Assembly (NCBI RefSeq): GCF_000025885.1
Contig: NC_014011.1
Span: forward strand, 806,001-870,000
DNA length: 64,000 nt
Direction of reading: 5' to 3'
Source: Aminobacterium colombiense DSM 12261
GTDB taxonomy: Bacteria > Synergistota > Synergistia > Synergistales > Aminobacteriaceae
Part shown: positions 28,336 to 38,753 of the stretch, piece after piece
Layout: every line of letters begins with the position of its first letter
Position numbering within the stretch: position 1 is the stretch's first letter
Translations under genes and position numbers: made by a program
The notes under the pieces: model-generated
Told to the model about the DNA's origin: nothing
What the model saw: only the letters and a program-made list of their open reading frames with translations
The model's database searches: none

Positions 28336-28377
28336 GACCAGCTGGTGAAATAATATCAGCTGGTCTTTTTCATTTTT
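28336..28377 (+). terminator. Intrinsic terminator after korC
   Basis: GACCAGCTG and CAGCTGGTC form a perfect 9 bp stem with a 12 nt loop, followed by TTTTTCATTTTT. Confidence 0.9.
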
Positions 28378-28422
28378 GATGTATTATATATAGAATTACG
28401 ACCAATGTTAGGAGTGTATGCG

Positions 28423-28773
28423 ATGCAGATGCTTGTTATAGTACTTAATAAGGTAGACAAGGTTGAAAGTCTTTTTAAGGAGTTTATTAACATAGGTGTT
28501 CGAGGGGCTACCATTATTGACAGTAAGGGGATGGCACGTGTTCTTCATGAGGATATCGATAAAATTCCTCTTTTTGGTTCCATTAAGATGCTGATTAACG
28601 ATCAGTATCCCTACAATAAAACCATTTTTGTTGTTTTAGAGGATGAACAAGTCCAACCGGCCATAGATGCCGTTAAAAGAGTAGTAGAAGATCTTTCTAA
28701 GCCTGATGTTGGAATACTATTTACCATACCTGTTAATTGCGTTGAGGGCCTTGCTTCCAACCATCGTAACTAA
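28423..28773 (+). CDS. PII-like signalling protein, unknown ligand
   Basis: A 116-residue protein with the ferredoxin-like alternation of PII/GlnB-superfamily proteins. It has a strand, then a helix (VDKVESLFKEFINIG), RGATIIDSKGMARVL (PII-like G-x-T...G-G-x-A), a central loop region (IPLFGSIKMLINDQ), a second strand-helix, and the C-terminal GILFTIPVNCVEGL that resembles the PII end (G.IFV.P). It lacks the canonical uridylylated tyrosine loop, so it is not a standard GlnB/GlnK. The ATG at 28423 follows AGGAG by 8 nt. It lies 65 bp upstream of a CPA2 antiporter, which suggests it regulates that protein; this is inference. Confidence 0.72.
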   Translation: MQMLVIVLNKVDKVESLFKEFINIGVRGATIIDSKGMARVLHEDIDKIPLFGSIKMLINDQYPYNKTIFVVLEDEQVQPAIDAVKRVVEDLSKPDVGILFTIPVNCVEGLASNHRN

Positions 28774-28838
28774 TCATCCACTCTGTTTTTCTTTTCTTTA
28801 CGAGGTCACAAAATATAATTTAAGGAGAGTCTTTTTCT

Positions 28839-30014
28839 GTGCATGTTTTGTATTATTTCGCCCTTGTTCTTCTTGCTGGAATTTTTATGGCTAAAGTTAC
28901 AAGGAAGCTGAGACTTCCAAATGTGACAGGGTATATTTTGGCAGGAATTGTTATAGGACCTTCTCTTGGAAAGTTGATTCCCAAAGAAGTGGTGTCATCT
29001 TTTTTTATTGTTTCAGAAGTAGCTTTAGGTTTTATTGCCTATAGTATAGGCAGTGAGTTTAACTTGAAGCATATTCGAAAAATCGGGTTGTCAGTTGTAT
29101 GGATTACTCTCATGGAATCCTTATGTGCGGTTTTTGCTGTGACGTTAGCCATGATATTTGTTTTCCACCAGCCCCTTCATTTCAGTCTTGTTCTTGGATC
29201 CATAGCGGCAGCTACGGCTCCTGCTGCCACCATTCTTGTCATAAGGCAATACAAGGCCAAAGGGGTATTAGTAGATACTCTTCTGCCCGTAGTTGCTATG
29301 GATGATGCAGTTGCCATTCTTGCTTTTGGTGTTGCGGTGGCTTTCGCAGAATCCCTTGTTTCCAATAATTCTGCTATTCCCATGGCATCTGTTGTTTTGA
29401 GAGTCTTCAACGAAGTTTTTTTCTCATTGCTTCTTGGTCTGGTTCTGGGACTCTTCCTTTCGTTTATGTCGGGGCGCGTTAAGGGGGAGGATGCACTTCT
29501 TTCTCTGACGATAGGCTGTATTTTTTTAGGCATAGGTCTTGCGTCGAAATTCGGACTTTCGTCTCTCTTCGTAGCGATGATGATTGGGGCTGTAGTTTCA
29601 AATCTGGTTTATTCTTGTGACAGAGTCCTCTCTGTAGTAGATCGTTTCACGCCTCCAATTTTTCTTGCTTTTTTTACTATCTCAGGTGCGGATTTGCAGC
29701 TGGGAATGTTGCCTAAAGTGGGTCTCATAGGGGTTGGATATGTTGTTTTTCGTGTAATAGGGAAAATTTTAGGAGCATATGCTGGAGCTCGAATGACCAA
29801 TTCGCCTCCAACTGTACAAAAATATCTTGGGCTGACCCTTGTGCCTCAGGCTGGTGTTGCTATAGGCCTCTCTCTTTTAGCAGAACAAACCCTCCCTGGT
29901 ATGGGGGTTGCATTGCGTAATATTATACTTGGGTCAACTGTAATATATGAGCTTTTCGGTCCTGTAATCGCTAAGCAGGCCTTAGTAATGGCAGGGGAGA
30001 TAAAAGAGTCCTAA
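28839..30014 (+). CDS. CPA2-family cation:proton antiporter (KefB/NapA-like membrane domain)
   Basis: A 391-residue integral membrane protein with about 12 hydrophobic helices. N-terminal RLPNVTGYILAGIVIGPSLGKLIP is typical of the Na+/H+ exchanger family PF00999. The unwound-helix region ASKFGLSSLFVAMMIGAVVSN and the acidic ion-site segment LLPVVAMDDAVAILAFGVA (DD) match CPA2 members. There is no C-terminal TrkA-N/RCK domain, so nucleotide control would have to come from another protein. The start is GTG with AAGGAGAG upstream. The preceding PII-like gene may supply regulation. Confidence 0.88.
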   Translation: MHVLYYFALVLLAGIFMAKVTRKLRLPNVTGYILAGIVIGPSLGKLIPKEVVSSFFIVSEVALGFIAYSIGSEFNLKHIRKIGLSVVWITLMESLCAVFAVTLAMIFVFHQPLHFSLVLGSIAAATAPAATILVIRQYKAKGVLVDTLLPVVAMDDAVAILAFGVAVAFAESLVSNNSAIPMASVVLRVFNEVFFSLLLGLVLGLFLSFMSGRVKGEDALLSLTIGCIFLGIGLASKFGLSSLFVAMMIGAVVSNLVYSCDRVLSVVDRFTPPIFLAFFTISGADLQLGMLPKVGLIGVGYVVFRVIGKILGAYAGARMTNSPPTVQKYLGLTLVPQAGVAIGLSLLAEQTLPGMGVALRNIILGSTVIYELFGPVIAKQALVMAGEIKES

Positions 30015-32053: not shown

Positions 32054-32127
32054 AACTCCGGCTTTGTACCCGATTATAGCCTACGCTGATGAATACTTTC
32101 TTGTAGTGGGGAAGGGGGGTGGATGGC

Positions 32128-32440
32128 ATGGCAACTAACTTGGCCGATGAAATCAAAAAGGCAGAATCAGATGCGAAACAGATAGTCAAAGATGCAAAGA
32201 ATGAAGCGGCACGTTTGATAAGTGAAGCCAAAAATGAAGCAGAAGTTCGAATCAAAGAAACTAGACAACAGGCCTTCCGAAAATATCGTGACAATTTGCA
32301 GAAAGTCGAAGAGGAGGCTGAAGCTAGGGCGGGGGAAATAGTCCGAAAGGGAAAAGAAGGTGCTAAAGCATTTACAAATAGCCATCAGGGGCGTGTTAAT
32401 AAGACCGCTGCCTGGATTGCGGAAGAGGTGATGGCTAGAT

Positions 32441-32454
<14 letters not shown>
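32128..32454 (+). CDS. V/A-type ATPase peripheral stalk subunit G/H
   Basis: A 108-residue protein that is almost wholly a charged alpha-helical coiled coil (ADEIKKAESDAKQIVKDAKNEA region, quoted in part as ADEIKKAESDAKQIV). This is typical of AhaH/NtpF-type stalk subunits that pair with subunit E. The ATG at 32128 has AAGGGGGG 8 nt upstream; a GTG at 32119 is too close to it. The end overlaps subunit I by 14 nt. First gene of the operon order G/H-I-K-E-C-F-A-B-D. Confidence 0.85.
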
Positions 32455-34965
<2,511 letters not shown>

Positions 34966-34989
34966 CCGTTGAGTCAGAGGTGAATGGTA

Positions 34990-35571
34990 ATGTCTTTGGC
35001 TGATATAAAGATAAAAATCGAGGCAGACGCAAAGAAAGAAGCCGAAAAAATTTTTGAGAACGCAAGACTGGAAGCAGATAAAATTCAAAAAGACGCTGAT
35101 GCTGAAATCCAGAAAATCGATGCATCTTATATTGAGCGGTTTAACACAGAAAAGCCGGAAATACTCAAGCGGCGCGAAATAGTTGCTAACCTCGATGTTA
35201 AGAAAATCATGTTGGGAGCTCAGCAGGATCTTATAGCCCTTGCTTTTAACGAAGCATTGAAAACTTTAGCTTCTCTTCCTGCTGATAAGTATTTGGCCTT
35301 CTGTGAGGCTCTTCTCGAGAAAGCAGTCGAGACTGGTGATGAATTCCTTCTTGTTTCACCAAAAGAGAAAAACCTCAACGAAGAGTGGCTTAAGAGGTAT
35401 AACGAAAAACATAAGACATCTCTCTCTTTAGAAAAATCAGCATCCCCTTTTTCTGGTGGTTTTATTCTCAGGAAAGGGGATATAGACACAGACTGTGTTT
35501 TTGACATGCTGATTACGTGGAGTAGAGAAGATATCGAGGCAGACGTTGCAAAACGGCTGTTCTCAGAGTAG
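34990..35571 (+). CDS. ntpE: V/A-type ATPase stalk subunit E
   Basis: A 193-residue stalk protein. The N-terminal long helix (SLADIKIKIEADAKKEAEKI) would coil with subunit G/H, and the C-terminal domain would bind the top of the A3B3 head. I prefer the ATG at 34990, which sits about 7 nt after GAGGTG, over the ATG at 34984. Subunit E is poorly conserved; the position between K and C supports it. Confidence 0.88.
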   Translation: MSLADIKIKIEADAKKEAEKIFENARLEADKIQKDADAEIQKIDASYIERFNTEKPEILKRREIVANLDVKKIMLGAQQDLIALAFNEALKTLASLPADKYLAFCEALLEKAVETGDEFLLVSPKEKNLNEEWLKRYNEKHKTSLSLEKSASPFSGGFILRKGDIDTDCVFDMLITWSREDIEADVAKRLFSE

Positions 35572-35588
35572 ACGGGGGGTGAGGCAGC

Positions 35589-36599
35589 ATGGCTACAGCA
35601 GTGCGGTATGGATATACAGTTGCACGCCTGCGGGCTATGGAAAGCCGCCTTCTCGATGATAGCGTGCTGCAGAGACTCATCGATTGTGAAGACCTTGATA
35701 GCGCCATGAAGGTTCTCGGAGAAACAGTCTATGCGTCCTGGCTTGTTGAACTTAAGACAAACGCGGAATTTGATAAGGCTATAGAGTCTGAGCTGAATTA
35801 TGTTTATAAAGAGGTTTCTAAATTTGCACCAGACTCTGCGTTGGTTGAGATGTGCAGGTTGCCTTATGATTTTCATAATGTGAAAGTTCTTTTAAAAAGC
35901 CAGATTCTTCAGCGCGAAAGTGGGGAACGTCGCTTTGAACTTTTAACATCTTTGGGAAACATTCCTACAGATGATCTCATTATGGCTGTGGAGTCAGAAG
36001 ATTTCAGATTGCTGCCTTATAGCCTTCATAGTGTTTTCCCAAGAGCCCTCGCTCTCTGGGAACAGACTCGCAACATTCTTGAGGTAGAGTGTTACCTAGA
36101 CGAGATTCTGTTCCAGGAGATGTTGAAGATGGCCCGTAAACTGGAATTCGATACTCCTCTTTTGTGGGTGCGGGGCAAAATAGACGCAGAAAATTTGCGA
36201 AATATGCTTCGCCTGAAAAGAATGGACAAAGACACTGCAACAGTTGAACCCTATCTTCACAATGGTGGCTTTGTGTCGATCGAAAGACTGTTAGCAATAC
36301 TTTCTGAACCAGTGGAAGGCTGGATCAGGGTTCTTTCTTACGCTGACATTGGAAAAGTACTGTCCAATGTACAGGACGGATCAGACATGAACGCTCTTCT
36401 GGTAGAAATGGAGAAGGTTCTGGATGATTACATAACAAGAATCCTGGAGACAGCAAAGTATGGTGCTTTTGCTCCCGAAAATGTCTTAAGCTATTTATGG
36501 AGAAAAGAGATAGAAGCAAAAAATCTGAGAATTGCTCTTGTTTCTGTGGCAAATGGCATGGACATGGACCTGACGAGGAGGTTGATGCGTCGTGGCTAG
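35589..36599 (+). CDS. ntpC: V/A-type ATPase subunit C (d-type rotor cap)
   Basis: A 336-residue, mostly helical subunit that sits on the K ring and connects it to the D/F shaft. RYGYTVARLRAMESRLLDD at the start and the C-terminal LSYLWRKEIEAKNLRIALV segment are characteristic of the AC39/NtpC family. It overlaps subunit F by 8 nt. Confidence 0.9.
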   Translation: MATAVRYGYTVARLRAMESRLLDDSVLQRLIDCEDLDSAMKVLGETVYASWLVELKTNAEFDKAIESELNYVYKEVSKFAPDSALVEMCRLPYDFHNVKVLLKSQILQRESGERRFELLTSLGNIPTDDLIMAVESEDFRLLPYSLHSVFPRALALWEQTRNILEVECYLDEILFQEMLKMARKLEFDTPLLWVRGKIDAENLRNMLRLKRMDKDTATVEPYLHNGGFVSIERLLAILSEPVEGWIRVLSYADIGKVLSNVQDGSDMNALLVEMEKVLDDYITRILETAKYGAFAPENVLSYLWRKEIEAKNLRIALVSVANGMDMDLTRRLMRRG

Positions 36600-36930
36600 A
36601 GATATGAACCAACCTATGGCAGCCATAGGCGAATACGAAACCGTTCTTCCTTTTCAGGCAGTGGGAGTCAGGCCTTTCGTTATTTCTGAAGAAGAAAGCA
36701 ACACCTTTGAATCTCTTCTTCTGCGGCTGGCCAAAGAGAAGTATGCGGTTGTTTTTATACAGGAGTTTCTCTTCGTAAAATACATGTCTATGGTAGAAGA
36801 GATCAACGAGGAATACCCTGTAAGCGTGTTACCTATCCCAGGGCTTAAAGGCAGTTCTGGAGCAGGATTAGAATCTATCCGCAATAGTGTGGAACGGGCT
36901 GTTGGGATGGATATCTTTGCTGTGAAATAG
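36592..36930 (+). CDS. ntpG: V/A-type ATPase subunit F
   Basis: A 112-residue central-shaft subunit with a Rossmann-like fold. It contains [15 protein letters not shown] near the N-terminus and [27 protein letters not shown] at the end (quoted in part as [12 protein letters not shown]). The start is taken as the GTG at 36592, with GGAGG upstream; an ATG at 36604 is possible. It binds subunit D in the rotor. Confidence 0.9.
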
Positions 36931-36956
36931 ACTTTTTATGCTGGAGGCGATTGATT

Positions 36957-38753
36957 GTGGCCACGGAAAAGGTCATTAGAGGGACCATAGAAAAAATATC
37001 CGGACCGCTCGTCGTCGCGAAGGGTATGTATGGCGCCAGTATGTACGACGTGGTACGAGTGGGCAATATAGGGCTTGTCGGTGAAATTATCGAATTAAAA
37101 GGTGATTTAGCTTCGATTCAGGCCTATGAAGAAACATCTGGCCTTATGCCTGGTGAACCTGTCGTAAGTACTGGAGAACCCCTTAGCGTCGAGTTGGGAC
37201 CCGGAATTATAGAGCAATTTTATGACGGAGTACAGCGTCCTTTGAACCTCATTGAAGATGCTGCGAAGAGCCACTTTATTTCTCGTGGTATAGATGTTCC
37301 AGCCATTGATAGAAATAAGAAGTGGAAATTTGAACCTCGAGTCAAGGCCGGAGATAGAGTTCATGCGGGGGATATTCTAGGAACTGTAAAAGAAACGGTC
37401 CTTGTCGAACATCACATTCTGGTTCCCTATGGCGTAGAAGGAACAGTTTCTGAAATTAAGGAAGGCGAATTTACAGTTATAGAAACAATCGCTGTTATTA
37501 AGAATGAAAGCGGTGAAGAGAAGAACGTAGTTATGTTACAGCGCTGGCCTGTCCGTAAACCAAGACCAGTGGCTCGACGCTTGCCACCTATTATTCCTCT
37601 GACAACAGGACAGAGGGTAGTTGACGCTTTCTTCCCTATAGCTAAAGGTGGGACAGCTTGTGTTCCAGGCCCCTTTGGTTCAGGAAAGACCGTCATCCAG
37701 CACCAGCTGGCAAAATGGGCTGAGTCGGATATCGTTGTTTATGTAGGGTGTGGCGAACGTGGAAACGAGATGACAGACGTTCTCCTTGAATTTCCTGAGC
37801 TGGAAGACCCACGATCAGGGGAGCCATTGATGAAACGTACTGTTCTTATCGCGAACACTTCTAATATGCCTGTTGCAGCACGGGAAGCAAGCATTTACAC
37901 AGCTATAACAATGGCCGAATATTATCGTGATATGGGGTACTCTGTGGCCTTGATGGCAGACTCAACAAGCCGCTGGGCAGAAGCTCTCAGAGAAATGTCA
38001 GGACGACTTGAAGAGATGCCTGGCGAGGAAGGTTATCCTGCCTATCTGGGGACACGTCTTGCCTCTTTCTATGAGAGAGCCGGCCGGGCTATTTGCCTTG
38101 GTTCCGACGGAAGAGAAGGATCGGTTACAGCCATTGGAGCAGTTTCACCTCCTGGCGGTGACCTTTCTGAGCCTGTTAGCCAGAATACTCTTCGCGTTAC
38201 AAAGGTTTTCTGGGGTCTTGACGCAAGTCTGGCTTACCAGCGTCACTTCCCGGCAATTAACTGGCTTCTCAGCTACTCTCTGTACACTGACACTCTCGAT
38301 AAATATTGGGATTCTCAGTTTGACGATGAATGGAGCGCACTGCGCGTAGAGGGCATGTCCCTTCTGGAAGAGGAAGATCAACTTCGCGAAATAGTGCGCC
38401 TCGTTGGAGTTGACGCTCTTTCCAAGGAAGAACGTATGGTTCTTGAGACTTCGAAGTCATTGAGAGAAGACTTTCTTCACCAGAACGCCTTCCATGAAGT
38501 GGACACATACGCTTCTATGGAAAAGCAGTTCAAGATGTTGAAGAATATTCTTATTTTCCATCACCTTGGCATGGATGCTCTGAAACGGGGAGCTTCAATG
38601 AGTGAAGTGTTCAATTTGCCAGTACGGGAAAAAATAGCACGAATGCGCTATATTGACGAAAAAGAGATCTCTCAGCTTGATAATCTTGATGGAGATATGA
38701 AAGCGGAGATCAACGCACTAATACCAGTGGGGGGCGATAGTGATGCTGCCTAA
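36957..38753 (+). CDS. ntpA: V/A-type ATPase catalytic subunit A
   Basis: A 598-residue catalytic subunit. P-loop GPFGSGKT is at about 238-245. The non-homologous bulge insertion precedes it, and the GERGNE motif carries the catalytic Glu. [27 protein letters not shown] is present in pieces. The GTG at 36957 lies 9 nt after GGAGG; an earlier TTG at 36951 is too close to it. It overlaps subunit B by 11 nt. The Na+-type rotor encoded upstream indicates a Na+-coupled enzyme. Confidence 0.97.

Follow-up and report, generated by a model that had tools for sequence, protein, structure and literature searches.

The window analysed here, 64,000 nucleotides of contig NC_014011.1 of Aminobacterium colombiense DSM 12261, carries two genes on the same strand, separated by 65 bp, that encode a small PII-like protein and a membrane exchanger of the CPA superfamily (Table 1). 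The original prediction of a PII-superfamily-like protein directly upstream of an antiporter is borne out: both genes are present in this arrangement, and the smaller protein scores 27.6 bits against PF00543 (P-II), for which the gathering score is 25.

For the PII-like gene, a start at ATG 28423 is preferred over the longer open reading frame from 28405 because an AGGAG lies at 28410-28414. The exchanger gene starts with GTG 28839, directly preceded by AAGGAG. On the 5' side, a terminator-like hairpin stands between the pair and a set of 2-oxoacid:ferredoxin oxidoreductase genes. A shared operon with these genes was considered and rejected, on the grounds of the intervening terminator and of the different neighbours outside the genus. 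The promoter candidate following the hairpin is a consensus match whose score does not clearly exceed the shuffled background. An Rfam search of the locus at E values up to 1 returned no family, including the c-di-AMP riboswitch. About 2 kb 3' of the exchanger, a run of open reading frames resembling a V-type ATPase operon begins (window positions 32119-38753).

Table 1. Features of the locus, in window positions. Conservation is given for the 46-member alignment of the PII-like family or for 83 paired exchangers.
Feature	Position	Strand	Basis or conservation
Terminator-like hairpin (stem 12 bp, loop 6 nt, then TTTTT)	28336..28365	+	sequence
Weak sigma-70-like promoter candidate, TTTTCA-18-TAGAAT, just 5' of the PII-like gene	28367..28396	+	consensus match only
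Shine-Dalgarno AGGAG of the PII-like gene	28410..28414	+	sequence
PII-like protein gene, 116 aa	28423..28773	+	PF00543 above cut-off; PII fold
G28-A29-T30 motif, PII/PstA adenine-contact Thr position	28504..28512	+	T30 46/46; PstA Thr-28 in PMC4316997
S34-x-G36-M37, base of T-loop region	28522..28533	+	G36 46/46, S34 43/46, M37 37/46
N65-K66-T67-I68-F69, family hallmark	28615..28629	+	N65 39/46, T67 42/46
P94-x-x-G97-I-L-F100-T-I-P103, at the canonical B-loop TGxxGDGKIF position	28702..28731	+	B-loop Lys absent
CPA-superfamily cation/proton exchanger gene, 391 aa, membrane domain only	28839..30014	+	PF00999
D155-D156, at the position of the ion-binding pair of NapA	29301..29306	+	D155 77/83, D156 80/83
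K309, matching the TM10 lysine of NapA in alignment	29763..29765	+	80/83

The PII-like protein and the exchanger

The PII-like protein is the sole protein of its genome above the PF00543 cut-off. An AlphaFold2 run on ten sequences from the window and related loci gave a model of moderate quality (pLDDT 71.7, pTM 0.68), poor around loop 42-63, in which the predicted order of strands and helices is the β-α-β-β-α-β ferredoxin-like order of PII. When the model was compared with the PDB using Foldseek, the best 50 matches were all PII proteins, with probability 1.00, so the fold proposed from the sequence passes the structural comparison that had been suggested for it. PF00543 is matched by 41 of the 46 family members at E values up to 0.01, while PF06153 (CdAMP_rec) is matched neither by the window protein nor by any of the 46. 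The NCBIfam matches are weak, confined to a few members and to general P-II models, and we therefore conclude that no curated NCBIfam model is dedicated to this family. Profile comparison gave E = 8e-7 against canonical PII and E = 1.4e-5 against PstA; as judged from these sequence profiles, the family is closer to canonical PII than to PstA, yet distinct from both.

Within the 46-member alignment, G28, T30 and G36 are invariant, and S34, M37, N65, T67, F69, P94, G97, F100, P103 and G109 are strongly conserved. Neither the window protein nor the family alignment has the T-loop Tyr51 (the YRG motif, site of uridylylation), and the canonical GDGK of the B-loop is replaced by PxxGI, with loss of its Lys. 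Across the family, Gln39, Lys90, Arg101 and Arg103 are missing, whereas canonical PII, as judged on the sequences of Bacillota_A, shows little or no variation at these positions. In GlnB/GlnK, Gln39 and Arg101/Arg103 serve, together with the B-loop, in the binding of ATP and 2-oxoglutarate. It had been claimed that the protein has no canonical uridylylation loop. This holds for the Tyr motif, with the refinement that the loop region has not been shortened: 26 residues separate R39 from K66, and 19 separate R38 from K58 in E. coli GlnB. Residues 50-58 of the loop are predicted to be helical, and most of the loop stretch has pLDDT below 50. Since the T-loop Tyr, the B-loop Lys and the C-terminal Arg are all absent, the protein is not regarded as a nitrogen sensor of the GlnB/GlnK type. 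The loss of canonical phosphate-binding residues also means that nucleotide binding is not assured. Thr30, Asn65 and Phe100 are the counterparts of the c-di-AMP contacts Thr28, Asn41 and Phe99 of PstA (PMC4316997). Relative to the PstA/DarA motifs TKLxxxGGFLxxGNTT and GGA (PMC4316997), the family keeps the Thr and NxT positions and has neither GGFL nor GGA.

The exchanger matches PF00999 with 107 bits (cut-off 26.2) over residues 10-365 of 391, and a Pfam search found no RCK, TrkA_N, TrkA_C or other further domain in it. It therefore consists of the exchanger domain only, as originally described. The CPA2 label is retained here because of the DD motif and because NapA is the best structural match found by Foldseek, but the curated NCBIfam CPA2 model TIGR00932 gives only 40.7 bits, well under its cut-off of 238.3. 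Electrogenic exchangers carry the arrangement of DD and lysine, while the electroneutral KefC has QD (PMC11150392). As the present protein has the former arrangement, electrogenic Na+/H+ exchange is the likelier guess from its sequence. The other intact exchanger of the same genome carries a fused TrkA_C domain. A further PF00999 exchanger in this genome is split over two short open reading frames (G000:C1:35033-35781) and is apparently a broken gene.

Conservation of the pair

The pairing is conserved beyond A. colombiense, in two phyla, Synergistota and Bacillota_A, to which the survey was limited. In Synergistota, a closely related PII-like gene is present in six genomes, A. colombiense included, and in each of them an exchanger adjoins it; the genes upstream of these pairs vary between genera. 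A scan of GTDB genomes, which used the PII sequence alone, returned nine loci, two in Synergistota genomes already counted and seven in Clostridia-type genomes; in 9/9, including 7/7 from Clostridia, the exchanger is directly 3' of the PII-like gene. In Bacillota_A, the phylum around Caldicoprobacter, 82 of 398 genomes were matched at E values up to 1e-4, a few of these matches being of the type linked to DUF1538. Adjacency was scored there for the 85 PII-like proteins of at least 60 bits, counting as a neighbour a same-strand PF00999 gene within 500 bp. There are 77 such proteins, 54 with the PII-like gene first and 23 with the exchanger first. Of the other eight, two lie at contig ends, one (L111) is divergently adjacent and five have no adjoining exchanger. 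Because selection used the PII sequence alone, the adjacency of the exchanger is an independent result, and 77/85 rules out chance adjacency. The median intergenic gap is 27 bp over 83 complete pairs, and the outer neighbours are not conserved across loci. The side-by-side conservation that the original prediction called for is thus found both within and outside Synergistota.

Some loci depart from the simple arrangement. The entire pair is present twice in tandem at L116 and L117. At L006/L026 (genome G011) the paired exchanger is read as two overlapping open reading frames, possibly through a frameshift or a sequencing error. Three family members without an exchanger neighbour (L114, L118 and L121) have another neighbourhood in common, with a gene for 485-502 aa upstream. 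No natural fusion of the PII-like protein with an exchanger was found; the candidates, long open reading frames near PII matches (L072, L135 and L138), proved to be an N-terminal extension or tandem PII domains. Plasmid records gave just two weak, unannotated matches.

The tree distances of the PII-like proteins and their exchangers are correlated, with r = 0.50 against a maximum of 0.20 in 2000 permutations, a correlation that partly reflects common species history. There is also evidence of re-pairing: the PII-like proteins of L113/L127 and L092 group with one partner set, while their exchangers come from a second, distant subfamily. As the pairing survives both inversions of gene order and changes of partner, the data suggest that the pairing as such is under selection. 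A gene for 254-255 aa, of similar sequence, recurs directly 3' of the exchanger-PII pairs of this second subfamily (L112, L119, L130 and L131).

Exchanger length, standing in for the lack of a C-terminal domain, was then compared in 40 genomes carrying the PII-like family. The open frame is at most 430 aa in 42 of 43 PII-adjacent exchangers, compared with 13 of the 25 that lie elsewhere (Fisher p = 7e-6). Replacement of a built-in domain by the PII-like partner is therefore a tendency and not a rule, since exchangers with neither a domain nor a PII neighbour exist. The exchanger homologues at 24 loci inspected in other Synergistota have no PII neighbour. Given that many exchangers of similar size have none, the exchanger fold does not need a PII partner.

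More distant PF00543 domains, some of them in tandem within one protein, adjoin DUF1538 membrane proteins (L007-L011, L134, L136, L137 and L139). A member of the DUF1538 family, UmpAB, has been reported as a Na+/H+ antiporter (PMC7221264), and this adjacency is a second linkage of PII with an antiporter.

Proposed function and alternatives

We consider it probable that the pair constitutes a regulator-transporter module, in which a PII-like ligand sensor docks on and switches a NapA-like exchanger. The original reading of a two-gene system is supported as a conserved pair, and the step from there to sensing and control of transport is one that we infer. The PII-like protein is most likely the dedicated regulatory partner of the exchanger. 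As proposed, the exchanger would be a NapA-like cation/proton antiporter with no built-in control domain, and the PII-like protein a cytoplasmic partner dedicated to it. Like other members of the superfamily, the latter would be a trimer with ligand sites between its subunits, where an adenine-type ligand may bind; the adenine-contact positions Thr30, Asn65 and Phe100 are retained. In one ligand state it would dock directly on the exchanger from the cytoplasmic side and so turn it on or off, controlling activity and not expression. Our first guess for the ligand is an adenine nucleotide, such as AMP or c-di-AMP, bound in a different manner from ATP in GlnB. NapA-type exchangers are dimers. KefC is likewise a homodimer (PMC11150392), whereas in GlnK-AmtB and SbtB-SbtA a trimer sits on a trimer (PMC10710835), so the known plug geometry is not directly transferable.

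The nature of the ligand leaves room for alternatives. As a special case of the module just described, the PII-like protein may be a c-di-AMP receptor, a functional counterpart of KhtT or of the RCK_C domain of CpaA, setting the exchanger according to a potassium-linked second messenger. Both KhtT (PMC11302148) and CpaA (PMC4316997) bind c-di-AMP, the A. colombiense genome encodes a CdaA-type diadenylate cyclase, and the family resembles PstA in its profile and at the three ligand positions noted above. Yet such cyclases are so common that one in a single genome tells little; PstA Arg26, Gln108, the GGFL loop and the GGA stretch are absent, the profile similarity to canonical PII is stronger, and the locus has no c-di-AMP riboswitch or other Rfam match. 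This identity is possible, if rather doubtful. We regard it as unlikely that the protein instead senses a cation or metal directly, in the manner of the CutA-type or PII-NG proteins linked to metal exporters, and gates the exchanger by ion load with no nucleotide involved. It is true that PII-NG proteins are found clustered with CzcABC proton/cation antiporters and that metal sensing has been proposed as their role (PMC7726332), and both the loss of the canonical phosphate-binding residues and the DUF1538 neighbourhoods of more distant PII domains would suit such a role. In the 46-member alignment, however, His, Cys and acidic residues form no conserved cluster fit for a metal site, and what is conserved corresponds instead to the positions that contact adenine in PstA and PII.

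Other alternatives concern what the PII-like protein does. Adjacency and correlated evolution would look identical if it acted on how the exchanger is expressed or assembled and not on transport activity. We hold this to be improbable, since a Pfam search detected no DNA- or RNA-binding domain in it and the PII proteins that act on transporters work by protein contact (PMC10710835). That it is a canonical GlnB/GlnK-type sensor of nitrogen or energy, adjoining the exchanger by accident, is extremely improbable. Its position as the only protein of the genome above the PF00543 cut-off, and the resemblance of the upstream genes to 2-oxoglutarate:ferredoxin oxidoreductase, could be read in that way. 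But the residues missing family-wide largely refute it, and canonical identity was rejected on that basis; in addition, a terminator precedes the pair and the upstream neighbourhood is not shared outside the genus.

Relation to known systems

Pairs of PII proteins and transporters are known already. A PII partner of CPA exchangers is apparently undescribed in the literature searched, where no paper on such a pair was found; subscription journals were little covered, and an earlier description is possible. Among the regulated transporters covered by a 2023 review, those under PII proteins include no CPA exchanger (PMC10710835). The observations suggest a widespread two-gene control of ion exchange, in A. 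colombiense and in many Clostridia-type bacteria. There is perhaps an even chance of a broader reading, that a large undescribed PII-like family, present in about one fifth of the sampled Bacillota_A genomes and some Synergistota, serves as a detachable regulatory subunit of at least two subfamilies of CPA exchangers, doing an RCK-like job with a ligand of its own, and that the PII-DUF1538 pairs are a second example, in parallel, of cation/proton antiport under PII control. If so, PII proteins, best known for nitrogen sensing, would control monovalent-cation/proton exchange, and the pH, sodium or potassium balance of many anaerobes would be under PII control. Many proteins named 'P-II family nitrogen regulator' from a Pfam match alone would gain a function, with a caution against reading them as nitrogen sensors, and the pair would offer a compact two-protein system for studying the action of PII on a dimeric transporter.

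The fold of the exchanger is matched best by Thermus thermophilus NapA, with which it shares the Asp-Asp pair and the TM10 Lys, although sequence identity is only about 20%; we know of no PII partner for NapA. PstA/DarA (CdAMP_rec, PF06153) has a PII-like fold, and its ligand-binding Thr, Asn and Phe are matched by residues of the present protein, which lacks the long B'-loop, the short T'-loop and the GGFL and GGA motifs. To our knowledge, PstA/DarA has no antiporter partner.

The genetically linked precedents are GlnK-AmtB and the PII-like SbtB with SbtA, in both of which control is by direct contact (PMC10710835). GlnK is, like the present protein, a small PII-fold protein encoded beside the transporter that it controls. 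The differences are that AmtB belongs to another transporter superfamily, that GlnK has a uridylylated T-loop and a GDGK B-loop, and that trimer meets trimer, the present exchanger being a probable dimer. SbtB is a PII-like transporter partner responsive to adenine nucleotides, but it carries a redox R-loop, its transporter SbtA is a trimeric symporter of bicarbonate, and no close sequence relationship was seen.

PII-NG genes are also linked to a proton-driven cation antiporter. However, CzcABC is a tripartite heavy-metal pump of the RND type, described for Proteobacteria, and here the partner is a PF00999 exchanger and the hosts are Synergistota and Bacillota; this separation was judged from the published description of PII-NG (PMC7726332).

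Separate soluble partners of CPA2 exchangers are found in KhtT-KhtU and in KefF/KefG with KefC/KefB. KhtT differs from the present protein in being an RCK_C protein and not a PII protein, and KefF and KefG are oxidoreductase-like ancillary proteins, again not PII.
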